This document shows positions 6,446 to 41,412 of a stretch of DNA of 62,282 nt, in pieces. Positions within the stretch are counted from its first letter, which is position 1. Every line of letters begins with the position of its first letter. The DNA is taken from assembly GCA_027450145.1 (NCBI GenBank), contig DAIDKH010000015.1:1-62282 (forward strand), read 5' to 3'. The DNA is from Chthonomonadaceae bacterium. GTDB lineage: Bacteria > Armatimonadota > Chthonomonadetes > Chthonomonadales > Chthonomonadaceae. Made by a program: the position numbers and the translations under genes. Under the pieces are notes generated by a model. It saw only the letters and a list, made by a program, of their open reading frames with translations, was not told where the DNA came from and searched no databases.

Positions 6446-7249
6446 TCATCCGCCCTTGCTGAGACTTCCTACCCTTTGCGCGCCAGGCTTCATATGAATT
6501 ACAAAAGCTGACAGGGATAGTGGTGGATTTAGCGCTGATTTGACGACTGAGCTGTGAACTTCCACGTGCATAAGAACGGAATGACCCACCATCTTGCCCT
6601 TAGATTTCGAGAGAACAGGCATGGTGATAGAAAATGGTGATGAAAGCGCATCGGTACGCACTATCTGATTTGTGTTCAAGTTTATGAACCACGTCCATTT
6701 AACATCTACGGATTTAACATGCGCTTTTGATTTACTGGCGGGCACCATTGCCGAAATAGTTGCGTATTCCTGGCCGCGAAGCTGTTTGGTTCTTACAAGC
6801 TTTATCTGAGCGAGGTTTGGCGGAAGCACTTCGCCCGCTGTGAAGAAAAGTCCGTTAAAAATGGTGCCCATCTGGGCGTGTGTGGATAATAGTGATAAAA
6901 CCCCTGCCAGCGTGGGCGCGGTTTTTGAGAGAGTGTATCGGTTGACCGACGGAACGTAGACGGTAAACTGTTTGCCGTTACTGCATATCTCTCGGACTCC
7001 ACCTTCCGCCTTTACAGAAATGAAGAGGTAATTTGGCTTCATCACAATTACTTTAACGCGTTGTTGTGCTACGCCAGACGGGGAGTGAACGGTGACATCG
7101 GCTGTTTCAGTGTAAGACTTCAGCCCGGCATACATCCGCTCGCATTGCTTCATTACTTTTTGGGGGGACGGCGCTACGGGTTGAACAACGGCTAATACAT
7201 GGCACTGCGATGCTAGCAGCAGGATTGCTGAAAGTGAGATGATGTTCAT
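6446..7249 (-). CDS. Secreted LolA/DUF2092-like lipoprotein-binding fold protein
   Basis: The frame extends upstream to 7327, but ATG 7249 fits best: GGTGGA lies just upstream and it opens a signal peptide (MNIISLSAILLLASQC...). The mature part alternates beta-prone segments (AEGGVREICSNGKQFTVYVP, then WTWFINLNTNQIVRTDAL), as in proteins of the LolA/LppX or DUF2092 type that bind lipid or report on outer-membrane lipoproteins. No catalytic motif is evident. It lies 10 bases upstream of the WecA-like gene on the same strand and probably shares its transcript. Confidence 0.65.
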   Translation of the reverse strand: MNIISLSAILLLASQCHVLAVVQPVAPSPQKVMKQCERMYAGLKSYTETADVTVHSPSGVAQQRVKVIVMKPNYLFISVKAEGGVREICSNGKQFTVYVPSVNRYTLSKTAPTLAGVLSLLSTHAQMGTIFNGLFFTAGEVLPPNLAQIKLVRTKQLRGQEYATISAMVPASKSKAHVKSVDVKWTWFINLNTNQIVRTDALSSPFSITMPVLSKSKGKMVGHSVLMHVEVHSSVVKSALNPPLSLSAFVIHMKPGAQRVGSLSKGG

Positions 7250-7410
7250 TTGTTCCACCGGGAATGTTGCAATCAGTATAGCACGGTACGAATGCAGGCG
7301 GACGGTGCTCAATAAAGCCACCGACAAATTGATGTGTCTTCCGATTCGTCACACCGCTGAAAGTACCAAACGGTGCTGGACATATTAGTGCAGGATGCCG
7401 AGTTGTCTGC

Positions 7411-8379
7411 GTGGAATATGTCAGCAACCTTCCCTTTGTGAGGTTCAATTTGACAGAATTTGAAATTGCCCGGATGTCTGTTGCCGACTTTTCCGAAGTA
7501 GGCTCGCTTATTCACAATTCCACCAATTACTGGTACAAGGAGCATACAGGTAACGCAGTGTTCAATTGCTCGCCGCGCGAGACCGAGCTCTTCTGCACCG
7601 AGTATGAGGCGCTGGATCCCGGTTGCTGTCTGGTTTTGCGGACCCCGAGCGACGGGACAATTGTTGCTTCCTGTTTCTATCATCCAAGGCCCACCCACAT
7701 TTCACTAGGGATATTAAATGTACATCCCGACTATTTCGGTCGCGGCGCTGCGCGACAGCTTCTGAACGCTGTAATCGAGATTGGCTCACAATGCGGTCTC
7801 CCAGTTCGCCTGGTATCAAGTTTAATGAACCTTGATTCTTTTTCGCTTTACAACCGCAATGGGTTTATACCACGAGCTGTTTTTCAGGACATGGTCCTAC
7901 CTGCCGATGCCACTCGCCTTCAGTTTGACGCGAGCCGGATCGGGGACACGCGTGACGCACAACTGGGGGATGTCGAGAACATGGTCCGGCTAGAACATGA
8001 ACAATGCGGTATCGACAGGCACGCAGATTTTCGACACATACTAAACAACCGCGCCGGTATATGGCATGTATCGGTGATGAACGATACGCGTGGACGGCTG
8101 CTTGGGTTCCTAGCGTCATGCGTCCATCCCGCTCACTGTATGCTTGGCCCTGGTTGTATGCTCTCTGATGAAGTAGCGGAGGCCCTAATTTGTCGTGAGC
8201 TTCGTTATCGTCTTCCCCACCAGCCACTTCTGCTTGTGCCTTCAGCACAACAACCACTTTTGGCCAGGCTCTACGCCCGCGGTGCAACAAACCTGGAATT
8301 ACATACCCTGCAGTGCCGCGGCGAATGGATTGAGCCACAGTGCATCGTCATGCCCTCATTTCTACCCGAAAGCATGTAG
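7411..8379 (+). CDS. GNAT family N-acetyltransferase, probably tandem
   Basis: The first half carries a GNAT acetyl-CoA site: a beta strand ending in LGILNVHPDYFGRGAARQLL (motif A, R/Q-x-x-G-x-G/A), then VSSLMNLDSFSLYNRNGF, the usual end of the fold. The second half (about 175-322) looks like a degenerate second GNAT unit without a clear acetyl-CoA loop. Substrate cannot be assigned. The GTG at 7411 has no strong ribosome binding site and ATG 7474 is an alternative. The gene stands alone. Confidence 0.75.
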   Translation: MEYVSNLPFVRFNLTEFEIARMSVADFSEVGSLIHNSTNYWYKEHTGNAVFNCSPRETELFCTEYEALDPGCCLVLRTPSDGTIVASCFYHPRPTHISLGILNVHPDYFGRGAARQLLNAVIEIGSQCGLPVRLVSSLMNLDSFSLYNRNGFIPRAVFQDMVLPADATRLQFDASRIGDTRDAQLGDVENMVRLEHEQCGIDRHADFRHILNNRAGIWHVSVMNDTRGRLLGFLASCVHPAHCMLGPGCMLSDEVAEALICRELRYRLPHQPLLLVPSAQQPLLARLYARGATNLELHTLQCRGEWIEPQCIVMPSFLPESM

Positions 8380-27095: not shown

Positions 27096-27130
27096 TTTCC
27101 GTTCCCAACGGAAGGTCACCCCAGGTGACC
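27096..27130 (+). promoter_or_regulatory. Twin hairpins next to the actA ribosome binding site
   Basis: TTCCGTT/AACGGAA (27097-27113, loop CCC) and GGTCACC/GGTGACC (27114-27130, loop CCA) are perfect 7-base stems stacked end to end. The second stops one base before GGAG (27132-27135). An alternative pairing, CCAGGT-G-ACCTGG (27121-27133), would cover part of that site. This looks like a translational or DNA-level control element. Confidence 0.55.
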
Positions 27131-27142
27131 TGGAGCTTGCAG

Positions 27143-27889
27143 ATGGCCCAAGTCTTTAGCCCGGTTAGTAATACAATTGCCCGTGTTGTGATGTTTTGCG
27201 GCGTTGTAGGACCAATATTTACCCTCATTGTCGGTAGCGCAATAACCCGGTCTCCGTACAATACCAATGTTGGCGTGCCTATCGCGCAACCGGTTCCTTT
27301 CAGTCACGAACACCACGCAATAGAACTTGGCATCGACTGCCGATATTGCCATACAGGTGTCGAAAAGTCAGGAAACCCCGGCATGCCGTCAACACAGGTC
27401 TGCATGTCCTGTCACTCGCAGATTTGGACCGACAGCCCCCTTATTAAACCAGTACGAGATAGCTATCGAGAAAATAAGCCGTTGGTGTGGAATCGGCTTA
27501 ACTGGGTGCCCAGATTTGTGTACTTCCCGCACAACATCCACATTGCGCGTGGTATTAGCTGCAATAACTGCCATGGTCCCATTCAAAAGATGATGATCAC
27601 GTACAAAGGGAAAGCGTTTTGGATGACATTTTGTCTCAACTGCCACCGGCAGCCGCAGAAGTTTCTGGCGCCTCGCAAGGATGTATGGCAACTTTACCGC
27701 GACATTCAGCGCTACGGATATCATCTTGCTGTGGACGGTAAGCCCGGCCTTACCCCAAGGGAATACGCTTTAGCTCAAGGGAAGTACTGGGAAAACGATG
27801 GTACCGATCTTGCTGAGGGCGAGGCCCTGAAGCGCGCCTACCACATACACTCTGCACAGCTTACCAACTGTGCGATATGCCATCACTGA
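27143..27889 (+). CDS. actA: ActA, pentaheme cytochrome c of alternative complex III
   Basis: Periplasm-facing heme subunit that accepts electrons from ActB. Five CxxCH sites are present (CRYCH, CMSCH, CNNCH, CLNCH, CAICH), the expected number, plus extra histidines such as PFSHEHH and FPHNIH for axial ligation. An N-terminal helix (VVMFCGVVGPIFTLIVGSAI) anchors it. Start ATG 27143 follows GGAG by 7 bases. It is first in the operon. Confidence 0.94.
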   Translation: MAQVFSPVSNTIARVVMFCGVVGPIFTLIVGSAITRSPYNTNVGVPIAQPVPFSHEHHAIELGIDCRYCHTGVEKSGNPGMPSTQVCMSCHSQIWTDSPLIKPVRDSYRENKPLVWNRLNWVPRFVYFPHNIHIARGISCNNCHGPIQKMMITYKGKAFWMTFCLNCHRQPQKFLAPRKDVWQLYRDIQRYGYHLAVDGKPGLTPREYALAQGKYWENDGTDLAEGEALKRAYHIHSAQLTNCAICHH

Positions 27890-27915
27890 GAGAGCGGATA
27901 GAGGACAAGTATCTG

Positions 27916-30900
27916 ATGGAGAACTCCAGTAACCAGAGGTTGGATCTGGCGAAGATCAAGGAAAAACTTAGTGCATCTCGGGGAAAACGCTACTGGCGTA
28001 CGCTGGAAGAGTTGGCGGAAACTCCTGAATTTATGGATGCGCTACACGAGGAGCTGCCACAAGCCGCTCGCACTAGTGACATTCACGTGGATCGCCGGCA
28101 GTTTCTCACCCTCGGTGCAGCCTCGCTCGCGCTTGCAGGCCTGAGCGGTTGCCGGTATCTCCCACAAAAGAAGCTGGTGCCCTACGTGGTGCAACCCGAG
28201 ATTGAGGTGGTTGGAATCCCGCTTCTTTATGCCACAGCGATCCCGGGCATCTATGGCTATGGAAATGGCGCATTAGCGTTGAGCCATGAAGGGCGACCGA
28301 CCAAGCTTGATGGAAACCCCAAGCATCCAGGTAGCCTTGGCAAGTTAGATGCGATTTCCCAGGGTACATTGCTTTCGCTCTACGATCCTGACAGAGCCCA
28401 GGTTATTTCGCAAAATGGAAACACTGCTACTTGGGACGACTTTTACGGGTTCGCGCGGCCCGTGTTAGCTAACTACGCCAAAACTGGTGGTGCGCAACTT
28501 CGCATTCTCACGCCCTCGGTAACATCGCCAACGTTGATATCTCAAATCAACGCAGTGCTTAAGCAATTCCCTGCAGCAAAGTGGGTGCAGTATGAACCGG
28601 TCAATCGTGACAATGCGCGGGTGGGGTCACAGTTAGCATTCAATCGAAGAGTAGATACCTATTACGACCTTTCCGCCGCAAAGCGAATTGTTTCCCTCGA
28701 TGCGGACTTCCTGATGTCAATGCCAGGCAGCGTGCGCTATGCACACGATTTTGCCAACGGCAGGAGGGTGCGTAAGGGAACCACTGCGGACGATCTGTGC
28801 AGATTGTACGTGCTGGAGAGCGCTCCGACGATTACCGGAGCTTCGTCCGATCACAAGATTGCGATGCGGGCTAGTGAAATACCCGCCGCGGCCTCTGCTC
28901 TTCTTCAGGCTCTGGGAGGCCCAAATGCTTCAGGTGGTACGGTAGATCAAGAGGTGCAGTCGCTGATCGCAGCGATAGCCGCGGATCTTCAGGCAAATCA
29001 GGGTTCGTCTGTCGTTATAGCAGGCGAGTTCCAGCCGCCTATCGTCCATGCGATTGCGCACGCAATCAACGAGAAAATTGGTGCGGTTGGTAAAACCGTA
29101 CATCACATTGAGCCCATTGAATCAGGTTCGGGGATGCATGTGCAGGACTTCGCCCAGTTGGTCTCAGACCTAAATTCAGGCAGCGTAGAGATGCTGTTGA
29201 TTCTTGGCGGTAACCCTGTATTTGACGCCCCTGCAGATCTCCATTTCTCGGAAGCATTGTCTAAAGTTACCAACAGAATTCACCTTAGTCAGTATGAAGA
29301 TGAGACCTCACAACTGTGTCAGTGGACGCTTCCTGAGTCTCACTTCCTTGAGGCCTGGAGCGACGTTAGAGGATACGATGGTACTGCCTCCGTTATCCAG
29401 CCGCTAATTGAGCCACTGTACGATACTCGATCATCCCACGAGGTAATATCCGGCTTATTCGACGCGTCAATCAGTGACGTTCCAGGTGCGCTTTCTATTC
29501 CGGAGCCAAAGGACGGTTACCACCTGGTTAGGGATTACTGGATGACACACGGTGTTCCGGATCCGTCCAAGCCGTTCGATTTCGATTTCAATCGCGTGTT
29601 GTTTGAGGGATTTGTCGCTGGTAGCGCGCCCAAATTGGCGACGGTGTCCGTAGATCAGCGTTTCCTTACCCAAGCCCCTGTACCTGCTGCCTTAAGTGCC
29701 TCTGGAAACACAGTAGAGGTGATGTTGCGTCCTGATCCCACCATTTGGGACGGACGGCATCTGAATAACGGCTGGCTGCAGGAACTGCCGAAACAGTTCA
29801 CGAAAACGACCTGGGATAACGTGGCACTAATGAGCCCGGAAACGGCAGCTAGCCTACATATACCTATCAATAAAGAGGGGAACCACGCGTCTCCCGTCGT
29901 CACTCTTACAGTAAGCGGTAATTCAATTAAAATTCCAGTGTGGACTGTGCCTGGGCACCCAGACAACGCAGTTACCGCGTTTGTAGGTTATGGCAGGACC
30001 AACGCTGGGCATGTAGGGAGCGGGACTGGTTTTGACGCATTTCCAATTATGTTGTCTCACACCGGTTGGAATACCGTAGCGGAGATATCGTATAACGGAG
30101 AAGGTTACGATATTGCTACCACGCAGCATCACCATCTCATGGATGGTCGCGATATTATCAGGTCTGGGAGTATCCAAGATTTTATAAAGCGCCCTAGCCT
30201 TGCACCCGATGACGCTAATGTTGACACAACTGACGGTGATTATGGGCGCAACCTGGATCAACCAGATGAGTATCCACGGTACCCATGGCCAACCGAGAAG
30301 ATGATTCAGGAAGGCGACGCACCTTATGCATATGCCTGGGGTCTCAGTGTTGATCTTTCGGTCTGTATTGGCTGTAATGCGTGTCTTGTGGCGTGTCAGA
30401 GCGAAAACAACATTCCGGTGATCGGGAAAAATCAGGTGATGCGCGGTCGTCATATGAACTGGATCCGAATAGACACCTATTACCAGAGCAACCCTGGCGA
30501 TTACAGAACGTACTTCAGGCACCCAAAAGTCTACTTCCAGCCTCTTACGTGCATGCAGTGCGAGCAAGCTCCATGTGAGCCAGTTTGCCCTGCTGCAGCC
30601 ACGATGCACAGTGTTGAAGGCATCAACCAGATGGTCTACAATCGATGCATCGGTACGAGATATTGCTCGAACAACTGTCCCTATAAAGTTCGACGATTTA
30701 ATTTCCTGAACTATAACAATCACTTCAGCCGAGACCGCTTTGGCCGGCCGATGACGACACTTGAGATGGTTTACAACCCTGAGGTGACCGTTCGTAGCCG
30801 CGGCGTGATGGAAAAGTGTGAGTTTTGCATCCAGCGAATCAACAAGGCGCGGCAAACCGCTAAAATCGAAAATAGGCCGATAGCTGATGGCGAAATTGTT

Positions 30901-31107
30901 ACCGCCTGCCAGCAGGTGTGTCCCGCTGATGCCATTGTCTTCGGTAATATCAACGATCCTAATTCAAAGGTATCCCAGTTGAAAGCGCAGCCACAGAATT
31001 ACGGACTTCTTGCGGAACTTAATACTCGGCCGCGACTTACATATCTAGCACGGGTCACTAACCCCAATCCGTCTATTAGTGGCGGCACGGAGCAGCAAAA
31101 TGGATAA
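27916..31107 (+). CDS. actB: ActB, iron-sulfur/molybdopterin-fold subunit of alternative complex III
   Basis: Start ATG 27916 follows GAGGA by 10 bases. The 1063-residue protein has a Tat signal (RRQFLTLGAAS at 60-70) ending in a lipobox-like LSGC (C79). A long molybdopterin-oxidoreductase-like domain follows, which in known ActB proteins has lost the cofactor. The C-terminal quarter is a ferredoxin-like domain with four cysteine groups: CIGCNACLVAC, CMQCEQAPCEPVC, a CIGTRYCSNNC group and CEFC...CQQVC. One group deviates (CxxxxYC), as expected for mixed 3Fe-4S/4Fe-4S content. It passes electrons from quinol at ActC to ActA/ActE. Confidence 0.93.
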   Translation: MENSSNQRLDLAKIKEKLSASRGKRYWRTLEELAETPEFMDALHEELPQAARTSDIHVDRRQFLTLGAASLALAGLSGCRYLPQKKLVPYVVQPEIEVVGIPLLYATAIPGIYGYGNGALALSHEGRPTKLDGNPKHPGSLGKLDAISQGTLLSLYDPDRAQVISQNGNTATWDDFYGFARPVLANYAKTGGAQLRILTPSVTSPTLISQINAVLKQFPAAKWVQYEPVNRDNARVGSQLAFNRRVDTYYDLSAAKRIVSLDADFLMSMPGSVRYAHDFANGRRVRKGTTADDLCRLYVLESAPTITGASSDHKIAMRASEIPAAASALLQALGGPNASGGTVDQEVQSLIAAIAADLQANQGSSVVIAGEFQPPIVHAIAHAINEKIGAVGKTVHHIEPIESGSGMHVQDFAQLVSDLNSGSVEMLLILGGNPVFDAPADLHFSEALSKVTNRIHLSQYEDETSQLCQWTLPESHFLEAWSDVRGYDGTASVIQPLIEPLYDTRSSHEVISGLFDASISDVPGALSIPEPKDGYHLVRDYWMTHGVPDPSKPFDFDFNRVLFEGFVAGSAPKLATVSVDQRFLTQAPVPAALSASGNTVEVMLRPDPTIWDGRHLNNGWLQELPKQFTKTTWDNVALMSPETAASLHIPINKEGNHASPVVTLTVSGNSIKIPVWTVPGHPDNAVTAFVGYGRTNAGHVGSGTGFDAFPIMLSHTGWNTVAEISYNGEGYDIATTQHHHLMDGRDIIRSGSIQDFIKRPSLAPDDANVDTTDGDYGRNLDQPDEYPRYPWPTEKMIQEGDAPYAYAWGLSVDLSVCIGCNACLVACQSENNIPVIGKNQVMRGRHMNWIRIDTYYQSNPGDYRTYFRHPKVYFQPLTCMQCEQAPCEPVCPAAATMHSVEGINQMVYNRCIGTRYCSNNCPYKVRRFNFLNYNNHFSRDRFGRPMTTLEMVYNPEVTVRSRGVMEKCEFCIQRINKARQTAKIENRPIADGEIVTACQQVCPADAIVFGNINDPNSKVSQLKAQPQNYGLLAELNTRPRLTYLARVTNPNPSISGGTEQQNG

Positions 31108-32554
31108 TACCCGCCATATTTCGTCGAGCAACGGGCCGGTTGATCCGGCCGTTGCGGGCCTAATGGAAGGCGAGCAGACTTTTGAGACGGTATCAGAGCG
31201 ACTAGCTTCCATCGTATTGCGGCAGGACAAGCATAAGCTGCCTTGGTGGATCATGCTGGGTATCGGATTTGTGATGTACAACTTACTTGGCATTGCACTC
31301 ACCAAACTTTTACTCTACGGTGTTGGTATATGGGGTATTGACGAACCTGTCGGTTGGGGTTGGGCAATCATCAACTTCGTATGGTGGATTGGAATCGGGC
31401 ACGCTGGTACGTTGATCTCCGCGTTCCTTTTGTTGATGCGGCAAAACTGGCGTAACTCCATTAACCGCTTCGCTGAAGCTATGACCATCTTTGCCGTACT
31501 CTGCGCCGGTATTTACCCTGTTTTCCATACTGGACGACCTTGGTGTGCATATTGGCTGTTCCCATACCCCAACATTCTGGGCATGTGGCCAGGTTGGCGT
31601 AGTCCGCTATTGTGGGACGTCTTTGCTGTTTCAACGTATGCTTCTGTTTCAATCTTGTTCTGGTTGATCGGATTGATCCCTGACTTCGCAACCCTGCGCG
31701 ATCGTGCAGAAAATGTAGTGGTTAAAAAGACTTATGGCGTGCTGTCACTTGGCTGGAGGGGAGCCGCGGAACATTGGCAGCGATACGAGACAGCGTCACT
31801 CATTCTAGCTGGTATCTCCACGCCGCTGGTGCTATCAGTCCACTCGATTATCAGTTTTGACTTCTCCATTGGTATCGTGCCTGGATGGCACACTGCAATT
31901 TCGCCTCCGTACTTTGTCGCAGGCGCTCTCTATGCAGGTTTTGCGATGGTTATTATTCTCGCGGTGCCGCTGAGAAAGTGGTACCACCTGGAAGATTACA
32001 TCACGCCGAAGCACATGGACTGGTGCGCCAAGTTAATGCTCACATCGGGGCTTGTTGTGTTGTACGGGTATATGTCGGAATGCTTCTTTAGCTACCTGAG
32101 CGGGAACCACATCGAGATTAGGATGATGGAGTTGCGTCAGTTTGGTCCTTACGGCGCTGCCTACTGGTTTCTAATCCTGTGCAATGGCGTCATTCCGCAG
32201 TTGTTATGGATCCCGAAGGTCCGCTTTCACAATGGATGGTTGTTCTTCATCTCGGTGGTGGTTAGCATAGGTATGTGGCTAGAGCGATACGTCATTGTCG
32301 TAGTCAGTCTCACTCGTGACTTCTTACCGTCCAGTTGGGGTTATTTCGCCCCTACCATCTGGGATATCCTGATGTACGCAGGAACCATCGGGCAATTTAT
32401 CTTCCTCTTCTTTATGTTTGTTCGCGTAATGCCCATGATCAACATCTTCGAGATGCGGGAACTGGTTCACAAAACGCACGGACATGTTCATTCCTCCGCA
32501 GAGGAGCATTCTGCGGCTACACCTGTCAGCCTGCCAGCTCAACCAGCGGAATAG
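31100..32554 (+). CDS. actC: ActC, NrfD-like quinol-binding membrane subunit
   Basis: Membrane subunit of about 484 residues with roughly ten helices and the NrfD/PsrC pattern (WWIGIGHAGTLISAFLLL, GRPWCAYWLFPYPN, SVHSIISFDFS). It provides the quinol site and probable proton path of alternative complex III. ATG 31100 overlaps the actB stop by 8 bases; GGAG lies 7 bases upstream. The C-terminus is histidine- and glutamate-rich (HKTHGHVHSSAEEHS). Confidence 0.94.
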   Translation: MDNTRHISSSNGPVDPAVAGLMEGEQTFETVSERLASIVLRQDKHKLPWWIMLGIGFVMYNLLGIALTKLLLYGVGIWGIDEPVGWGWAIINFVWWIGIGHAGTLISAFLLLMRQNWRNSINRFAEAMTIFAVLCAGIYPVFHTGRPWCAYWLFPYPNILGMWPGWRSPLLWDVFAVSTYASVSILFWLIGLIPDFATLRDRAENVVVKKTYGVLSLGWRGAAEHWQRYETASLILAGISTPLVLSVHSIISFDFSIGIVPGWHTAISPPYFVAGALYAGFAMVIILAVPLRKWYHLEDYITPKHMDWCAKLMLTSGLVVLYGYMSECFFSYLSGNHIEIRMMELRQFGPYGAAYWFLILCNGVIPQLLWIPKVRFHNGWLFFISVVVSIGMWLERYVIVVVSLTRDFLPSSWGYFAPTIWDILMYAGTIGQFIFLFFMFVRVMPMINIFEMRELVHKTHGHVHSSAEEHSAATPVSLPAQPAE

Positions 32555-32590
32555 GCTCAAGTAAACCATTCTTAAAGGTGAAGAACGATT

Positions 32591-33121
32591 ATGAGTAGAA
32601 TTTACGGACTGGTCGCCGAATTCGACACCGCAGAGGCCCTCCTCCGCGGTGCCGAGGCTGCGCGCGAGGCAGGCTATCGCCGTGTTGAGGCCTATTCGCC
32701 GTTTCCTGTCCATGGTATGGCCGAGGTTCTTGAACATGACGATCCGCGCCTTCCATGGGCGGTGTTCATAATGGGTGTGATCGGTTGTGCAACAGGGTTT
32801 GGATTAGAGAGCTGGACGGCAGTTATTAACTATCCCTTTAATATTGGCGGTAAGCCAACATTTAGCTGGCCAAACTTCATTCCCGTGGCGTATGAGTTGA
32901 CTATTCTGTTCTCTGCGTTTACTGCCGGTCTCTCGATGTTAGTGCTGAACGGACTTCCTAGGTACCATCATTCAATTTTCAATACACCACGGTTTGAGCG
33001 GGCGAGTTCAGATCTTTTCTTCTTGTGTATTGAGGCGCGAGACGCAAAATACGACCCTGAGGAGACGGCTCACTTCCTTGAAAACCTGGGAGCCCAGCTA
33101 GTTTCTGAGGTGGAGAAGTGA
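32591..33121 (+). CDS. actD: ActD (DUF3341) subunit of alternative complex III
   Basis: A 176-residue protein with a soluble N-terminal part (IYGLVAEFDTAEALLRGAEAAREAGYRRVEAYSPFPV) and two membrane helices, the standard DUF3341 layout. Role is structural or proton-related. The actE GTG overlaps its stop; actE more likely starts at ATG 33127. Confidence 0.93.
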   Translation: MSRIYGLVAEFDTAEALLRGAEAAREAGYRRVEAYSPFPVHGMAEVLEHDDPRLPWAVFIMGVIGCATGFGLESWTAVINYPFNIGGKPTFSWPNFIPVAYELTILFSAFTAGLSMLVLNGLPRYHHSIFNTPRFERASSDLFFLCIEARDAKYDPEETAHFLENLGAQLVSEVEK

Positions 33122-33126
33122 GTTAC

Positions 33127-33855
33127 ATGCAGCTTAAACCATACAAATTGCGCGCCATTCTCGCAGGTGCAACTTTAACGGGCCTCGCTCTGCTGTCGGG
33201 TTGCCATCAGGATATGTGGAATCAGCCCAAAGTTCGTCCGTTTGATCCGTCGTCGTTTTTCGGTAACGGCTCTGCAGATCGGATGCCAGTTCCGCACACG
33301 GTGGATCAGGCTCACTTTTGGACCGATGAGGGTCGGTATACCGGCTATACAGGCACACGAATAGTTAATGGGAAGTTGATCCCTGGACGGCTAGTCACAA
33401 AGTTTCCTATTAAGATTACAATGGCTGATCTTCAAAGAGGACAGCAGCGATATGATATCTTCTGCACTCCTTGCCATGGTGCATTAGGCAATGGTAAAGG
33501 CATGATAGCCGAACGAGGCTTTGCGTTGCGAAAACAGCCTGCTTCATATCTAACCAAGCGCCTTCGCGACATGCCGATTGGCCACTTTTATGACGTAATC
33601 ACCAACGGCTATGGGATGATGTACTCTTATGCCTCACGCATAACTCCCGATGACCGCTGGCGTATTGCCGCGTATATACGCGTGTTGCAGAGAAGCGGAG
33701 ACGCCAAGATCTCGGACGTTCCTCCTAATAACCCCGAGATAAATACTCTGCAGCAGGAGATGCAGCCTGGAGATGGCGCCGCCCCTGTTAATGTGAAATC
33801 GCCTGGTAATACAGCAAATAATTCTATGCAAGAGGGGGGTTCAACAAATGGTTAA
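33127..33855 (+). CDS. actE: ActE, lipid-anchored monoheme cytochrome c of alternative complex III
   Basis: Signal peptide with lipobox LLSGC (C26) and one heme site CTPCH (113-117). The late MMYSYASRI segment may supply the methionine ligand. It receives electrons and hands them to the oxidase. ATG 33127 has GGAG 11 bases upstream, better than GTG 33118, which is only 2 bases away. The next gene overlaps its end by 8 bases. Confidence 0.92.
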   Translation: MQLKPYKLRAILAGATLTGLALLSGCHQDMWNQPKVRPFDPSSFFGNGSADRMPVPHTVDQAHFWTDEGRYTGYTGTRIVNGKLIPGRLVTKFPIKITMADLQRGQQRYDIFCTPCHGALGNGKGMIAERGFALRKQPASYLTKRLRDMPIGHFYDVITNGYGMMYSYASRITPDDRWRIAAYIRVLQRSGDAKISDVPPNNPEINTLQQEMQPGDGAAPVNVKSPGNTANNSMQEGGSTNG

Positions 33856-35074
33856 CAACTCAGGTTTTCCTAAATTGTTGACTCGTATCGGCATTGTTGG
33901 ACCTGTGTTTGCAGTCATAGGGCTGGTTCTATTGCTGGCCGGCAGTGGTGGGGGTGTCTCGCAGTTCTATCATGCTTGGATAAATGGCTGGATATTCTGG
34001 ATGAGCCTCAGTACGGGCTGTTTTGGTTTGATGATGCTGGGTGCCATGGTGCGCGCCCAATGGGTACAACCCCTGCAACGGTTCTTTGAGGCTGGTGCGT
34101 GGAATTATGCTCTGTTAGCTATTCTGTTTGTTCCAATCATAGTAGCTGCAGCTACAAACCACTTGTTTCCGTGGGCCCATCCTGTTCAGGTAGCAGCGGA
34201 CCCTATTTTAGCCTACCGGTCACACTGGTTCAACACTCCATTTTTGACGGTAAGAACCTACCTGATGTTTACGGTTTTCCTAGTCTTTATTCGAATGTTG
34301 ATAAAGGTTGGCAAGGTTCAAGACGAGCATCCCGACATTCCAACGCGGCTTAAAGCCGGCAGTCTGCGCGCTTCAATCGCGGCACCAGGATTCCTTATTA
34401 TGGTGCTTCTAATTACGCTAGGGGTAACAGACTGGATCATGTCCTTAGATCCTCATTGGTATTCTACAATGTACGGCTTTTTGTTCTTGATAGGTGCTGG
34501 TCTCGCTGCAATGACATTTGGTGTCATCCTTGCGTCTCAAATGGCGATTGAGAATGAGGAGCCTTTCAAGGAACTAGTCACGCGTCAGATGACGCGCGAC
34601 TGGGGTAACCTGTTACTCATGATGACCATGGTTTGGGCTTATTTTTCCATTTCCCAGTACCTCATCTACTGGTCTGGTAACCTTCCGGAAGAAGTGACCT
34701 TCTATATCCAACGAAACGCCGGAACGTTTGCCTGGGTGACTAGCGCCATTGTAATTTGCCAGTTCTTCCTGCCGTTCCTGTTGTTGCTTTCGTCTCGCTT
34801 GAAGAGGCGTCCAAACATGATCCGTAATGCAGCGATACTCATTTTCCTCACGAGAATCGTCGAGGAAGCATGGAATGTCGTTCCTATGTTTCACAGTTGG
34901 CACGGTGCCGATTCAGGGCTAGCCGTGCAGTTTCAAGGTCTGATTTCTTACCTAGGTGCGTGGCTTTTGATAGGTGGACTGTGGTTAATACTGTTTACAC
35001 GATACCTGCGCAAAGGAAGCTTGGTTGGCAGTCCTGATCCGCAGCTGGTGGAGGTTTTGGAACATGCACACTAG
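33848..35074 (+). CDS. actF: ActF, NrfD-like membrane subunit of alternative complex III
   Basis: A 408-residue polytopic protein with about ten helices, related to ActC but shorter (WINGWIFWMSLSTGCFGLMMLGAMV, SLDPHWYSTMYGFLFLIGAG). Together with ActC it forms the membrane core of the complex. Its 3' end overlaps the next start by 11 bases. Confidence 0.93.
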   Translation: MVNNSGFPKLLTRIGIVGPVFAVIGLVLLLAGSGGGVSQFYHAWINGWIFWMSLSTGCFGLMMLGAMVRAQWVQPLQRFFEAGAWNYALLAILFVPIIVAAATNHLFPWAHPVQVAADPILAYRSHWFNTPFLTVRTYLMFTVFLVFIRMLIKVGKVQDEHPDIPTRLKAGSLRASIAAPGFLIMVLLITLGVTDWIMSLDPHWYSTMYGFLFLIGAGLAAMTFGVILASQMAIENEEPFKELVTRQMTRDWGNLLLMMTMVWAYFSISQYLIYWSGNLPEEVTFYIQRNAGTFAWVTSAIVICQFFLPFLLLLSSRLKRRPNMIRNAAILIFLTRIVEEAWNVVPMFHSWHGADSGLAVQFQGLISYLGAWLLIGGLWLILFTRYLRKGSLVGSPDPQLVEVLEHAH

Positions 35075-35627
35075 CAACAATGGCCCGGATCCAAATCTAG
35101 ATCCCAGTAAGGGCTATGAAACTCGGGATCTCGATCCGGTAAAGCTGCTTCCGATTGTGTTCATGATGGCGGTGTTCATTTTAGTCGCATCCGGTGCGGG
35201 CTACGCGGTATGGTACTTCAACCAGGGAGTATCTCCCTACCACAAGGAAGCAATGTTGCCAAGGCAGATTGAGCGCCCGTTGCCGTCGTCGCCTGTAGTT
35301 CAAGCTAACCCACAAATGGACATCCGTCAGTTTCGAGCCCAGGAGTACACGGAGTCGCATACATACTGGGTAGGACCCGACCATCACTTGCACATCCCGA
35401 TTTCGCGGGCGATGGAGCTTGTTGCCCAGGAAGGGCTTCCAACGCGTTCCAATCCTGGCACACCTGACAAGGACGGTCCCAACGAACCATCATTTATGTC
35501 TGGTCAGGCGCCAACTGCATCTTCTAGTGGTTCAGCGGGTTCCGCAACGGCATCTCAAAAGGCTGGCAGTGTAACCATGGCTCCAGCCACCTCTGCAATG
35601 GCCGCGGCTGGCGGCGGAAAAGGTTAA
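35064..35627 (+). CDS. Small membrane-anchored protein of the alternative complex III operon
   Basis: About 187 residues: a short polar N-terminus, one membrane helix (IVFMMAVFILVASGAGYAVWYF), an outer segment with YTESHTYWVGPDHHLHIPISRAMELVAQEGLPTR, and a low-complexity tail rich in A, S and G. Proteins with the IPISRAMEL..GLP block recur in such operons and may assist assembly or bind the oxidase, but function is unproven. ATG 35064 follows GGAGG at 35048. It overlaps actF. Confidence 0.75.
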   Translation: MHTSNNGPDPNLDPSKGYETRDLDPVKLLPIVFMMAVFILVASGAGYAVWYFNQGVSPYHKEAMLPRQIERPLPSSPVVQANPQMDIRQFRAQEYTESHTYWVGPDHHLHIPISRAMELVAQEGLPTRSNPGTPDKDGPNEPSFMSGQAPTASSSGSAGSATASQKAGSVTMAPATSAMAAAGGGKG

Positions 35628-35633
35628 GATAGT

Positions 35634-36497
35634 ATGTGTGGACTGTGGTTGGCATTTAAACGTGGCCTTACAACTTCCGCTATAGCTGCTGTGGCGCTAT
35701 CGTCACAGGTAGCAAATGCCCAGATTAACCTTAACCAGGGCGCCTATATGACGCCCGCTGTAGATGCTCATTTCGATGTACGGCTCAACAAGACGTTGCC
35801 AGGTATCCTTACTTTCACCAACAGCCGGGGAAAGTCGGTTAACCTGGACAGCTACTTCGCTACGCACGTTCCGATCGTTTTCATGATGCCATCGTACAAA
35901 TGCAAACTTGACTGTGCCGCAGAAATGCGAGGACTTGCGGTAGCGACAAAAGACCTATCACTGAAACTGGGAAAGGACTACCAGATAGTAACGGTAAGTC
36001 TTTCGCCTAATGACCAACCTGGCGATGCCCGCGCGGCTGCAGGTCGAGCGTGGAGTGGTCTGTCGAAAAACGGTGTTCCACCAGCGGGCTGGCATGCATT
36101 AGTTGGCAACGAAACGAACATCGTTAAGCTTGCGGAAAATTTGGGTGTCCACTATATTCAAGATGCATCCAAGAACAACTTTAACAATCCAACCGGAATT
36201 ATTATCACCACCGGCAGTGGCCGGATTTACCGTTACATATATGGAGTCCAATTTATGCCCTCATATCTCCAGTCTTCTCTCCGAGAGGCTGGTGATGGCA
36301 AATTGGGAATCCCCACTGAGCAGCAAATTACTTATTGCTACGGCTACAAGAATCCAACTGGCGTGATTGGTCGTAGGTTGCAGGATTTAATAGTGTTCAG
36401 TGGTTGTCTAACGGCAATCGTGGTGGCAGGATTTATCGGCTTGTCGATCGCTAACGAAGTTACAGGCCGAAAAAAGCCACCGACCGTTGCGGTGTGA
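35634..36497 (+). CDS. SCO/SenC-type protein, first copy, copper-ligand histidine replaced by Asn
   Basis: SCO proteins are thioredoxin-fold chaperones that deliver copper to the CuA site of oxidase subunit II, using CxxxC plus a distant histidine. This 287-residue protein has a signal peptide (ending VANA), C90 and C94 in YKCKLDC, and a C-terminal membrane helix (FSGCLTAIVVAGFIGLS). At the position of the usual histidine it has N185 (FNNPTGI), whereas its neighbour has FNHPTGI. It may therefore act as a thiol reductant rather than a copper donor (inference). Confidence 0.85.
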   Translation: MCGLWLAFKRGLTTSAIAAVALSSQVANAQINLNQGAYMTPAVDAHFDVRLNKTLPGILTFTNSRGKSVNLDSYFATHVPIVFMMPSYKCKLDCAAEMRGLAVATKDLSLKLGKDYQIVTVSLSPNDQPGDARAAAGRAWSGLSKNGVPPAGWHALVGNETNIVKLAENLGVHYIQDASKNNFNNPTGIIITTGSGRIYRYIYGVQFMPSYLQSSLREAGDGKLGIPTEQQITYCYGYKNPTGVIGRRLQDLIVFSGCLTAIVVAGFIGLSIANEVTGRKKPPTVAV

Positions 36498-36561
36498 ACC
36501 TGCAACGATTGGCGCATTGATATGCTGTGGCGACATCCATGGCGGAAGGTTCAGGCAAGAC

Positions 36562-37455
36562 ATGGGCATGGTTAGATCAAAAATGGCGGCATTACTGTTA
36601 CGAGCTGGTGCAGGCATTATGCTAGCATCGGTTCCTTTGGTGTGCCGCGCCCAGATTTCGTTCAATAAGTTGTCTGCGTCAGAGATTCAGGCGCATATTG
36701 GCTTTACACAGTTGGTTAATCGTCAGGTTCCTTTGAACCTAACATTTACTCGCTCTAATGGCAGTACTGCGACGCTCGGTCAGTATGTCAACGGTAAGGT
36801 GCCATCGATACTCGTGATGCCATTTTATAAATGTAAAGCGGGCTGTACCCTGGAAATGCACGCGCTTGTAAGCGACATCGATTCCATGCATCTGATCCCC
36901 GGCAAGGACTATCAGATTCTGACCGTGTCGATCAATCCATACGAGACGCCAGCGTTGGCCGGTCAGATCAAAACCTACTATGGATCCCAAATTAAAACGC
37001 CCGGTGCGACTGCTGCTTGGCACTTTTTCACCGGCACAGAACCGAACATCGTTGCTCTTGGCGAGGCAGTCGGTTATCATTGGGTGCAAGACCTAAAGAA
37101 CCAAGCATTTAATCATCCAACCGGAATAATACTCCTAACGCCGAAGGGCCGTATTTACCGGTATTTCTACGGAACAGATTATAACTCGCATGACCTTCAA
37201 ATCGCCCTAACGAAAGCTGGGGATAATCAGACCGGTACTGTAGTTCAGCAAATACTGTCTTACTGCTGTACTTGGAATCCCACCACGGGACATTACGGTC
37301 TGGTGCTGTATCGGCTCCTATGGATCGCATGTTCTGCGACCGTCGCTATTATTGTGCTAGGGGTAGGTACCTTATTATTCCTGGAGCGACGTATTCGTCG
37401 CATCAAAGGCCGATCTTTAATTGACAACAACAGCGGTACACCCCATGCCGTCTAA
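36562..37455 (+). CDS. SCO/SenC-type copper chaperone, second copy
   Basis: Paralogue of the preceding gene, aligning residue for residue: C91 and C95 in YKCKAGC and H185 in FNHPTGI complete the copper site. It has an N-terminal signal peptide (ending CRA) and a C-terminal membrane helix. Start ATG 36562 is favoured because it opens directly into the signal; ATG 36568 is equally possible. It probably metallates the CuA centre of the oxidase subunit encoded 18 bases downstream. Confidence 0.88.
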   Translation: MGMVRSKMAALLLRAGAGIMLASVPLVCRAQISFNKLSASEIQAHIGFTQLVNRQVPLNLTFTRSNGSTATLGQYVNGKVPSILVMPFYKCKAGCTLEMHALVSDIDSMHLIPGKDYQILTVSINPYETPALAGQIKTYYGSQIKTPGATAAWHFFTGTEPNIVALGEAVGYHWVQDLKNQAFNHPTGIILLTPKGRIYRYFYGTDYNSHDLQIALTKAGDNQTGTVVQQILSYCCTWNPTTGHYGLVLYRLLWIACSATVAIIVLGVGTLLFLERRIRRIKGRSLIDNNSGTPHAV

Positions 37456-37473: not shown

Positions 37474-38547
37474 ATGAATTTTCCTATAATGCCGCAAACG
37501 GCGAGCAATTATGCCGTGAGTATAGACGACATATACTTCACGCTCGTGGCGCTCACAGTAATTTTTACTGGTATCGTCACGCTGATGCTTCTTGTGTTTT
37601 CTGTTCGCTATCGACGGGGCACGAAGGTGAGCCGTAAGAATCCATCAACGGGCAATCTCTATATGGAGTTGACCTGGTCGATCATTCCAATGTTGCTGGG
37701 ACTATGGATTTACGGCTGGTCGGCGATTCCGTATTCGAAAATCTACGGGGATCCACCGTCAAATGCGTCCGAGATCTATCTAATTGGCAAGAGGTGGATG
37801 TGGCATTTTCAGCACGCGAATAGCGGAATTCGCGAAAACAACGAGCTGCACCTAGAGGTAGGTAAGGCAGTTAAGGTCACCATGATTTCGCAAGATGTCA
37901 TCCATGGTTTTTACGTACCAGCCTTACGTCTGAAACGTGATTGTCTGCCCGGAAGGTACAACACTGTGTGGTTTCGCCCAAATAAGGTAGGGAAGTATTA
38001 CCTTTTTTGCAGTGAGTACTGCGGTACAAACCACTCGGAAATGACTGGGTATGTGTACGTATTATCGCCACAAGACTACGCGCAATGGAAGGCCAATGGT
38101 GGTTCAGAACATCTTGCGCACACGTTGACCACTGTAGAAATCGGTCATGATCTGTTTGAAAAATACGGTTGTATCCAGTGCCACGGTGCGCAGGACAATG
38201 TACACGGGCCCACCATGAACGGACTTTACGGAACAACTGTTAAACTTAGCAATGGACAGTCGTCCACTGTAGATGACAACTTCTTGCGGACGGCGATTAT
38301 TAATCCGCAGGCACAGAGAATCGCTGGTTGGCCTGCTGTAATGAGCGGCTTTCCGGTTGGATCGGGCGATGGACAGATATCGGAAGAGAATCTACTCGAT
38401 CTCATCTCTTACATTAAATCACTTGGTAATGCACAGCAGGCGACGGTATCGGCAGCCGCCAAAGCATCAGCCACTGCAGCGGCACCTTCAGCCGCGCATC
38501 CGCCCAAACATCATGTGTCATTAGCTACGAAAGGCCAGAGTAGATGA
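37474..38547 (+). CDS. ctaC: Cytochrome c oxidase subunit II with fused cytochrome c (caa3 type)
   Basis: Two N-terminal helices, then a cupredoxin domain whose CuA ligands are H144, C179, C183, H187 and M190 ([12 protein letters not shown]). A cytochrome c domain follows with CIQCH (233-237), then an A/P/H-rich tail. The fusion lets the oxidase take electrons directly from ActE/ActA. There is no obvious lipobox and the N-terminus is short. It overlaps ctaD by four bases. Confidence 0.95.
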
Positions 38548-40301
38548 GCAGCATACCGCTAAATCCGGGTGCCATTGGAACTGGCGGGCGCACCCGGGCC
38601 CGCGAAAACTATCTTAATATTAAGCACACGGTATCTTCGTGGCTGCTTACCGCAGATCACAAGAGAATTGCAGTTCTCTACATGATCTCTATATCAGTGA
38701 TGTTCCTGTTTGGGGGTGTGGCTGCTGCCGGAATTCGAATCGCATTGGTTCGACCACACGACACATTCTTCTCCTCTGAGACCTACAATAAGCTGTTCTC
38801 CGCGCATGGCATCATCATGGTGTTTTTCTTCTTGGTGCCGTCTATCCCTGCCACGTTGGGCAACTTCTTGTTACCAATTATGATAGGGGCCCGAGATCTG
38901 GCATTTCCGCGCCTCAATCTGCTCAGTTGGTATCTCTACATGTTTGGTGCAGTCTTAGTGATGGGGGCAATTCTGTTTGGTGGTATTGACACTGGTTGGA
39001 CCTTCTACGAGCCGTATAGTTCCGTGTACTCTAATACGAACGTTGTTGCGGTGATAGTTGGCGTCTTTATAGCAGGCTTTTCGTCTATTGCAACTGGTAT
39101 AAACTTCCTTGTTACAGTGCACAAGATGCGTGCTCCTGGCCTTACGTGGTTCCGTCTGCCGCTGTTCGTCTGGGCTATGTATGCAACCAGCATCATCATC
39201 GTGCTGGGGACGCCAGTTGTTGCCATTACATTATTAATGGTCGTTTTGGAGCGCGTGTTTGGAGTATGCGTATTTAATCCAGCCTGCGGCGGGGATCCAA
39301 TCCTTTTCGAACACCTGTTCTGGTTTTACTCGCATCCTGCTGTGTACATCATGATCCTTCCCTCCATGGGAATTATCAGTGAGGTGATCGCCTGTTTTGC
39401 ACGAAAGCGTATTTTTGGTTACGAGTTTGTGGCCTTCTCGAGCATGGCAATTGCGCTGTTGGGCTTCCTAGTATGGGGCCACCATATGTTTGTCACCGGC
39501 GAGTCGATGTACAGTGGTATGGTGTTCTCGCTTATCACGTTCCTCATTGCGGTACCATCGGCAATTAAGGTGTTTAACTGGTCGGCTACGCTATATAAAG
39601 GGAATGTTTGGCTGACCTCGCCGCTAGTGTTCGCGATAGGCTTCATCCTGCTATTCACAATAGGTGGATTGACTGGCCTGTTCCTTGCTTCACTTGCCGT
39701 AGACGTGCATCTTAACATGACCTACTTTGTGGTGGCCCACTTCCACTACGTCATGGTCGGCGGCGCGATATTTGGGTATATGGCCGGGCTCCACTTCTGG
39801 TGGCCAAAGATCACCGGCCGAATGTATCCTGAAGGCTGGGCGATGCTTTCTGCCTTCATTATGTTTATCGGCTTTAACCTTACGTTCTTCCCGCAGTTCA
39901 TTCTGGGTTTCGATGGTATGCCCCGTCGATACCACTTCTACCCACCGGAATTCCAGATGTGGAATATTCTGTCCTCGGCGGGATCAAGCGTTCTAGCTGT
40001 TGGGATGATTATTCCCGGTATCTATTTCCTCTGGTCGCTGAGATATGGTGCTCTTGCACCTAGCAATCCGTGGGGTGCAAAGGGGTTGGAGTGGACTATT
40101 CCATCTCCACCGCCATCTCATAACTTCGACAACGTGCCCATCGTAACCGAGGATGCCTATGCTTACGAGGCGATATATGCCGCCGAACTTGCTGGCGACT
40201 ATTCGCATGTTGAGGCACCGATTCCCTTAGGAGCGGAAGCGGAATACTCAAGTCCTGCGGAACCCTCGAAATTACCTAACTCCAGTGAGGAGCGTCAATG
40301 A
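38544..40301 (+). CDS. ctaD: Cytochrome c oxidase subunit I (A2-type heme-copper oxidase)
   Basis: Catalytic subunit of 585 residues, twelve helices. Heme a ligands are H88 and H401, the heme a3 ligand is H399, CuB ligands are H264, H313 and H314, and the crosslinked tyrosine is Y268. The helix VI motif reads YSHPAVY (262-268), so the glutamate of A1 oxidases is absent and the Tyr-Ser pair replaces it, defining subtype A2 as in Rhodothermus caa3. It is flanked by 4-base overlaps with ctaC and ctaE. Confidence 0.96.
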
Positions 40302-41074
40302 GCTTAGAACTCCAACATCCTGCGGTCGCTCCGCAGCGGTTGTCTCATCAGTTCGAGCAAATCGATCAGCAAAACGAGATCTATATAGTAGGTATGTGGA
40401 CTTTTCTTGTAACAGAGATTATGTTCTTCGGCGCGCTTTTCGTCGCTCTCACAGTTTATCGAAGTGTCTATCCCGATGCATTTGAACAGGCCCACAGCGC
40501 ACTCAATGTGTGGTTGGGCCTAACAAACACGTTCATTCTGCTTACATCGAGCTTCACAGCCGCTATGGCAGTTCGAAGTAAAATGTTGGGGCAGCGTGTA
40601 CTTACACTGCTGTTTCTGGGCATCACGATAGTCTGCGCCTTTGGCTTCCTAGGTGTAAAATATGTCGAATACTCGGCCGAGTTCAGGGAGCACCACTTCC
40701 CAGGTCCGAATTTCCAATGGTCACAAACAGTCTCACCTTCGACGGCACAGGGCGACCTAGCGGCTAATTCTCAAGTAGCGTTAGGGGTGCCGAAGATTGG
40801 GGTGAACGAATTTCCAGCTAATTACCAACCGCAACAACTAGAGCTGCACAAGCGCGAACTATTCTTTAGTCTATACTTTGTGATGACGGGGTTGCACGGT
40901 TTCCACGTGATTATTGGTATTCTGGTTCTCTCCACGTTGTGGCTGCTTATTTACTTCAATCATCCAACCGTAGACGACTACATGCCAGTGGAACTTGCTG
41001 GTTTGTACTGGCATTTCGTCGACATCGTGTGGATATTTCTTTACCCACTCGTTTATCTCATAGGAAAGCAGTGA
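40298..41074 (+). CDS. ctaE: Cytochrome c oxidase subunit III
   Basis: Membrane subunit of 258 residues with the [20 protein letters not shown] start and [15 protein letters not shown] core. A hydrophilic insert of about 60 residues (roughly 125-190) separates the third and fourth helices, longer than in most subunit III proteins. The start overlaps ctaD by 4 bases. Confidence 0.94.
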
Positions 41075-41412
41075 TGGACAACTCAGAACACATTAACCAT
41101 GGACCTGGTGTAGGTCATCACCATGTTACACCTGTTGGAACCTACGTTGCTACTTATCTGGCCCTCTTGGTGCTGCTCGTACTTACCTTTGCAGTATCAC
41201 GTATAGATCTGGGCGCATTCAACATTGTGGTTGCACTTGGTATTTCAGTCGTTAAGACTGCCCTTGTAGTACTTATATTCATGGGTGTGCGCCACAACTC
41301 GAAGTTGACCTGGTTTTGGGCGTCGATAGGATTTGTATGGCTTATATTGCTCTTTCTCACTCTAGGCGACTATGTCACCCGGCAGTGGGTACATCTGCCG
41401 CTCGGCTGGTAG
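41074..41412 (+). CDS. ctaF: Cytochrome c oxidase subunit IV (small, bacterial type)
   Basis: 112 residues, histidine-rich start (HGPGVGHHHVTP) followed by three helices (YVATYLALLVLLVLTFAV, FNIVVALGISVVKTALVVLIFMGV, WFWASIGFVWLILLFLTLGDY), the COX4_pro layout. ATG 41074 shares its A with the ctaE stop (TGATG) and has AGGA 8 bases upstream. Last gene of the respiratory run. Confidence 0.92.
   Translation: MDNSEHINHGPGVGHHHVTPVGTYVATYLALLVLLVLTFAVSRIDLGAFNIVVALGISVVKTALVVLIFMGVRHNSKLTWFWASIGFVWLILLFLTLGDYVTRQWVHLPLGW

Follow-up and report, generated by a model that had tools for sequence, protein, structure and literature searches.

In humans, SCO2 acts as a copper-dependent thiol reductase beside the donor SCO1, and in Paracoccus ScoA has been proposed as the reductase for ScoB/CoxII, as described in PMC6696091. 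The roles of bacterial SCO proteins in copper carriage and in thiol reduction are the subject of an old argument, resting largely on proteins with a full set of ligands or on laboratory mutants. Among the latter, the Streptomyces lividans SCO with its His ligand changed to Ala is described in PMC3603459 as binding copper almost normally and reducing it to Cu(I), with an unchanged potential of the Cys pair (-279 versus -280 mV), no reductase activity in the insulin assay and no restoration of wild-type oxidase activity at low copper. Here, a natural bacterial SCO pair is described in which one partner keeps the Cys pair and carries Asn at the position of the His ligand, while the other keeps the complete set.

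The tandem SCO genes and their operon

The window, i.e., the whole stretch of 62,282 nucleotides analysed here, corresponds to contig C15 of draft genome G000 (4.14 Mb, 96.65% complete). Two tandem SCO genes, referred to as copy A and copy B, are located between alternative complex III act genes on the 5' side and cytochrome c oxidase genes on the 3' side. The features are as follows:

27125..35627, + strand: alternative complex III act genes and a small membrane protein, directly 5' of the SCO pair
35085-35627, within that + strand block: the small membrane protein, in the interval between the last act gene and SCO, seen in 12/16 related loci, in some of them weakly
35634..36497, + strand: SCO copy A, 287 aa, His ligand replaced by Asn185 (open reading frame, alignment, AlphaFold2, structure matches)
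35901..35915, + strand: C90-x-x-x-C94 of copy A, inside MMPSYKCKLDC (codons TGC and TGT)
36150-36152 and 37078-37080, + strand: His173 of copy A and of copy B, shortly before the ligand loop (alignment)
36186..36188, + strand: Asn185 of copy A, codon AAT, at the copper-ligand position (His in 88/91 aligned rows)
36336..36338, + strand: Cys235 of copy A, a third Cys a little ahead of the C-terminal helix (Cys in 90/91 rows)
36562..37455, + strand: SCO copy B, 297 aa from ATG 36562, full CxxxC and His set (Pfam below cut-off, AlphaFold2)
36832..36846, + strand: C91-x-x-x-C95 of copy B (codons TGT and TGT)
37114..37116, + strand: His185 of copy B, codon CAT (codon readout)
37264-37266, + strand: Cys235 of copy B, before the C-terminal helix (Cys in 90/91 rows)
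37474..38547, + strand: subunit II of the cytochrome c oxidase, carrying CuA ligand residues and fused to a cytochrome c domain (Pfam, alignment)
37942..37944, + strand: Cys157 of subunit II, an extra Cys in a loop of the CuA domain, KRDC (alignment, motif pattern)
38544..41412, + strand: COX1 (subunit I), COX3 (subunit III) and a putative fourth subunit of the oxidase, downstream of subunit II
40939-41412, + strand: open reading frame of the putative fourth oxidase subunit, named by its position

ActD and one cytochrome c subunit were named by Pfam and the other act names were assigned from gene order, while the small membrane protein matched neither Pfam nor NCBIfam. The order act, SCO, oxidase is found in 14 of 16 chosen related loci, and in two of the 16 (L115 and L119) only SCO was recognised. 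The residues that the sequence-only reading had given for the two proteins (C90/C94 with N185 and C91/C95 with H185) are exact, and its numbering is right with the second open reading frame starting at ATG 36562. Copy A thus has the CxxxC motif and lacks the distal His ligand, while copy B has both. That the operon also makes the CuA subunit was likewise borne out, as a PF00116 search of the draft genome detected a single COX2, encoded by the gene after copy B. Within this subunit, H144, C179, E181, C183, H187 and M190 are the residues that we take to be the CuA ligands.

By alignment, position 185 is the SCO copper ligand, because the His column of a family profile of 91 rows coincides with the His of Bacillus subtilis Sco and of plant and human SCO1 when compared with solved structures. 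The underlying alignment comprises the two window copies and 89 relatives, leaving out the near-duplicate row L084, and its ligand column holds Asn in only three rows, namely copy A and its two orthologues within the genus. Similarly, 150 distinct SCO sequences were divided into 145 with the Cys-Cys-His triad (CCH), three with CCN, one with CSH and one interrupted by an in-frame stop. These sequences, including the two of the window, were obtained from 229 open reading frame matches in fetched stretches after removal of identical or contained ones, and most come from a search of one phylum, covering genomes at least 85% complete, that gave matches in 138/237, part of which were fetched. A pattern scan that covered 84,980 species, with one genome per species, yielded six confirmed relatives of the Asn copy, two of them close (66 and 76% identical, taken as those of G012 and G011) and four at 28-34%; as the scan requires exact short peptide matches, diverged Asn copies would be missed. 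A search of open-licence PMC texts found no report of a natural bacterial SCO lacking the His with CxxxC intact. A genome survey of Sco proteins is reportedly that of Banci et al. 2007.

His173, which in sequence lies near the ligand loop, is present in 10/10 SCOs of the clade to which the pair belongs versus 6/81 of the remaining rows of the 91-row alignment. In the AlphaFold2 models of both copies (mean pLDDT 85.0 for copy A and 86.6 for copy B), strands 175-177 and 182-184 flank the ligand loop, with residue 173 just before the former and residue 185 just after the latter. Cys235 lies in a low-confidence stretch of the copy A model (residues 231-240, mean pLDDT 55). In position it resembles the membrane-proximal Cys of COX11, a residue described in PMC9232578.

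Copy A consists of an N-terminal signal peptide, recognised by eye, a thioredoxin/SCO domain and a C-terminal helix (residues 244-278) that is taken as a membrane anchor. When its model was compared with solved structures, ranks 1-15 were all SCO entries (Z 22.1 to 13.4), with 3me7_A as the best match (Z 22.1, rmsd 2.0 A, 163 residues aligned), while other thioredoxin-fold proteins begin at rank 16 (Z 13.4). On the model, copy A has an SCO-type thioredoxin-like fold. In profile searches, copy A had no match to Pfam PF02630 (SCO1-SenC) at E 0.001, copy B scored 19.6 bits, under the cut-off of 22.8, and neither matched NCBIfam at E 0.01. As the operon SCO exceeds the PF02630 cut-off in only 8/17 family genomes, this Pfam model is weak for the SCO subfamily in question. 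Copy A carries CxxxC instead of the CxxC active site by which TlpA/ResA-type proteins are recognised; its action may resemble that of such a reductase, but we do not classify it among them.

Copy A is also under constraint. In comparisons between species, non-synonymous differences amount to a proportion of 0.172-0.211 for copy A and 0.097-0.150 for copy B, while the synonymous differences of copy A are saturated (0.78-0.80), for which reason no dN/dS ratio is given. Set against saturated synonymous sites, the non-synonymous proportion of copy A indicates purifying selection, somewhat weaker than that on copy B. A pseudogene or decaying gene was ruled out, as the frame is intact and under such selection. 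The segment MMPSYKCKLDCAAE is identical across the three A copies, and F83, S87, L92, D93, W140, N169, V172, N185, Y211 and K239, among others, are shared by all three and occur in none of the other 88 rows, so the His change does not stand alone. Altogether, 39 positions are specific to copy A, scattered over the whole protein.

Distribution and history of the pair

SCO was found in 17/17 family genomes, with two copies in four (G000, G011, G012 and G010) and one in 13. The first three of these are species of one genus, while G010 belongs to another genus of the same family. The Asn/His split occurs in 3/3 species examined of the genus, with copy A before copy B every time. The sequence-only reading had considered that the substitution might be unique to this strain, and the same split in the same order in G011 and G012 speaks against that; its presence in three separate assemblies likewise rules out a strain-specific mutation or an assembly error. 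Aligning the SCO pairs of related operons, the check proposed with that reading, gave a split result: the Asn/His arrangement extends through the genus but is not general, as 13/14 other family genomes encode a single SCO. A search at the level of the order (24/31 genomes with a match) revealed no further SCO pair.

In G010, the first copy of the tandem pair is canonical (CKSGC, FNHPTG), while the second carries CKAGS and FDHPTG and has thus lost the second Cys (Cys2) and kept the His (L007 1282-2283; contig C71, about 6924-7679). Judged from these motifs, one full SCO and one copy minus a ligand are common to both genera, with the Asn/His split itself being genus-wide. Loss of a ligand as a general trait of tandem SCO pairs was ruled out by G068, a genome of another family, in which both copies of the tandem pair are CCH.

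Copies A and B are 38% identical, which rules out a recent duplication and, on sequence, makes them an old pair. The Asn copies are joined to the Cys-Ser-His copy of G010 with support of 89/89 in a 92-row tree and 95/94 in a 22-row tree, and their clade sits on a long branch (1.2-1.5). Copy B, in turn, falls with the canonical copy of G010 in the 22-row tree (64/86). A single duplication shared with G010 is therefore favoured by the tree topology but not proven. The alternatives, with the six copies of the genus (p-AU 0.15) or the two of G010 (p-AU 0.33) forming a monophyletic group, were not rejected, so that one or two duplications are both possible. Shared rare residues are also mixed, with five for copy A and the G010 Ser copy, two for copies A and B, none for copy A and the canonical G010 copy, and five for the G010 pair. 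The SCOs of six genomes (G000, G011, G012, G010, G008 and G007) form one clade (100/100 in the 92-row tree), and this clade contains both pairs with a lost ligand.

Candidate roles of copy A

The CuA subunit itself has an unusual residue in the same lineage. Cys157 of subunit II lies 22 residues before the first CuA Cys, and its aligned counterpart in the subunits of Thermus and Paracoccus is Ala. In 60 distinct sequences readable by the motif pattern, position 157 is occupied 42 times by Val, 13 times by Ala and five times by Cys; the subunit II of G068, with its canonical SCO pair, falls outside the 60. The five Cys157 sequences represent six genomes (G000 and G011, identical there, G012, G010, G008 and G007), the same six whose SCOs form the clade holding both ligand-loss pairs. 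It could be speculated that a third Cys forms wrong disulfides with the CuA pair and so favours a helper. Contrary to such a need, G007 and G008 combine Cys157 with a single SCO.

Other copper and thiol factors were searched for by profile. PCuAC was detected in 0/17 family genomes (3/14 control genomes positive), Cox11 in 0/17 (1/14 controls positive) and Caa3_CtaG above cut-off in 0/17, with one weak match in G013 (2/14 controls). The absence of Cox11 is unsurprising, as PMC9145763 describes it as restricted to proteobacteria and eukaryotes. A DsbD-type membrane domain is encoded in 16/17 family genomes, with or without an SCO pair, and is a possible electron supply. Two further proteins in G000, of 429 and 454 residues, give partial PF02630 matches above cut-off. 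Named by eye, both appear TlpA-like and not SCO, look secreted and carry a CxxC motif (CPDC and CGPC in the two):

L220, 97-1386 (contig C2): TlpA-like protein
L221, 988-2352 (contig C4): TlpA-like protein

Periplasmic reductants besides copy A therefore probably exist, which argues against a dedicated SCO reductase.

We read the His-bearing copy B as the copper donor and the Asn-bearing copy A as a specialised accessory SCO. Our preferred, still tentative, account is that copy A is an old and retained accessory SCO that acts through its Cys pair, with its likeliest task being thiol-keeping for CuA or for copy B. Copy A would dock on the same partners, presumably subunit II and/or copy B, and work via its Cys pair without stable coordination of Cu(II). 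It would keep or put the CuA cysteines (C179/C183, with C157 nearby), or those of copy B, in a reduced and unpaired state, supposing that the redox reaction runs in this direction, and copy B would then load copper, if the events follow in this order. The accessory role is supported by the conservation of the Asn/His split in 3/3 species, the purifying constraint, the SCO fold and the fixed residues specific to copy A. It is further supported by the single COX2 detected, by PCuAC, Cox11 and over-cut-off Caa3_CtaG each being found in 0/17 family genomes while the DsbD-type domain is found in 16/17, and by the precedents of human SCO2 and Paracoccus ScoA (as given in PMC6696091).

Several observations speak against it. 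As far as described in PMC3603459, replacing the His by Ala in the S. lividans protein created no reductase activity. Beyond the genus, 13/14 family genomes manage with a single SCO, among them G007 and G008 with Cys157. The G010 copy that falls with the Asn copies in the tree has lost Cys2 and so cannot be a dithiol reductase. The two TlpA-like CxxC proteins could do the same job, which lowers our confidence, and the DsbD-type domains do not track the SCO pair. Moreover, the 39 positions specific to copy A are spread along the whole protein, and His173 might partly replace the lost ligand.

Viewed against this evidence, the functional proposals of the sequence-only reading hold in part. Its division of labour agrees with a canonical/His-less split maintained genus-wide beside the only CuA gene detected, but as a general split it fails with the 13/14 single-SCO genomes. 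Its premise that copper transfer needs the His agrees with the S. lividans mutant, which fails to support the oxidase at low copper, while loss of the His alone keeps copper binding (PMC3603459). The mutant therefore supports a need for the His in transfer in vivo, and not that a protein without the His is without copper or is a reductase. A dedicated thiol reductase, as that reading had suggested for copy A, is possible, but the His-to-Ala Sco described in PMC3603459 gained no such activity and other CxxC candidates exist. As that protein bound copper nearly normally, the tightness of copper binding by the two copies, which had been proposed as a distinguishing measurement, would not separate the hypotheses.

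The main rival to an accessory role is one in which copy A holds or makes Cu(I) and copy B holds Cu(II), so that the two jointly feed the mixed-valence CuA site and copy A replaces the undetected PCuAC. We consider this rather unlikely. According to PMC3603459, removal of the His from S. lividans Sco, and reportedly from the B. subtilis protein too, leaves copper bound and driven to Cu(I), and the CxxxC of copy A is intact. In the Bradyrhizobium model presented in PMC9145763, Sco carries Cu2+ while PCuAC delivers Cu2+ and then Cu1+, and PCuAC was detected in none of the 17 family genomes. However, 13/14 other family genomes have a single SCO and are likewise without detected PCuAC, the authors of the S. 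lividans work propose that the His mutant can no longer transfer copper once in its Cu(I) form (PMC3603459), and Asn differs from the Ala of the laboratory mutant. An extended version strikes us as improbable: in a system without detected PCuAC, the Asn SCO would make Cu(I) and pass it on, the His SCO would supply Cu(II), and the two would also have to cope with the lineage-specific third Cys.

Alternatively, copy A may be a relaxed paralogue in which ligands were lost singly after duplication (Cys2 in G010, His here), while a docking or stabilising role on subunit II was kept. The loss of a different ligand in each of two family genera would fit such relaxation, as would the grouping of the Asn copies with the Cys-Ser-His copy and their long branch, and plant HCC2 persists without both Cys and His (PMC3971200). 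Yet both Cys are kept in 3/3 Asn copies at 68-74% overall identity, constraint is strong, a shared origin of the two odd copies is unproven given the p-AU values of 0.15 and 0.33 for the alternatives, and the cited literature, as far as it covers the subject, neither shows nor proposes a docking role. We consider relaxation slightly less likely than the division between Cu(I) and Cu(II). A continued role of copy A as copper chaperone, in which His173 or the family-wide Cys235 would serve as substitute third ligand, is very improbable: the clade-wide presence of H173, its possible closeness to residue 185 across the adjoining strands in the models and the Cys in 90/91 rows would allow it, but copy B has H173 as well and needs no replacement, and C235 lies in the stretch modelled with low confidence.

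Comparison with known SCO systems

With copy A read as an accessory SCO, the locus resembles the human SCO1/SCO2 and Paracoccus ScoA/ScoB systems in having two SCO paralogues for one CuA site (PMC6696091). Human SCO1 and SCO2, as described in PMC9232578, both keep the Cys pair and the His, while copy A is without the His. Unlike the human and Paracoccus pairs, the genes here stand in tandem within an operon that encodes alternative complex III and the oxidase, and the anchor is apparently C-terminal. In Arabidopsis, HCC2 is likewise an SCO paralogue that has lost ligands and exists beside a canonical one, HCC1 (PMC3971200). HCC2 lacks both the Cys pair and the His and is dispensable for the oxidase according to the same source, whereas copy A keeps its Cys pair and is encoded in the oxidase operon.

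The closest likeness in ligand composition is to the S. lividans Sco H176A and B. subtilis Sco H135A mutants, in which the ligand His is gone and the Cys pair is intact (PMC3603459). Yet these are engineered Ala substitutions in a canonical Sco, while copy A has a natural Asn and is an accessory protein with a canonical partner. By both sequence profile and fold, the closest solved structure is Aquifex aeolicus aq_2194 (3me7/3me8), which has His at the ligand column, as do four other solved structures aligned, where copy A has Asn.

Evolution has removed a single ligand from one copy, the His here and Cys2 in G010. With both genes in one operon, one CuA target detected and neither PCuAC nor Cox11 detected, the natural pair can show directly which ligand is required for each activity. 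Division of labour between SCO proteins and the existence of helper SCOs are already known from the systems above; what is new here is a natural partner that lacks the His while its Cys pair is intact.
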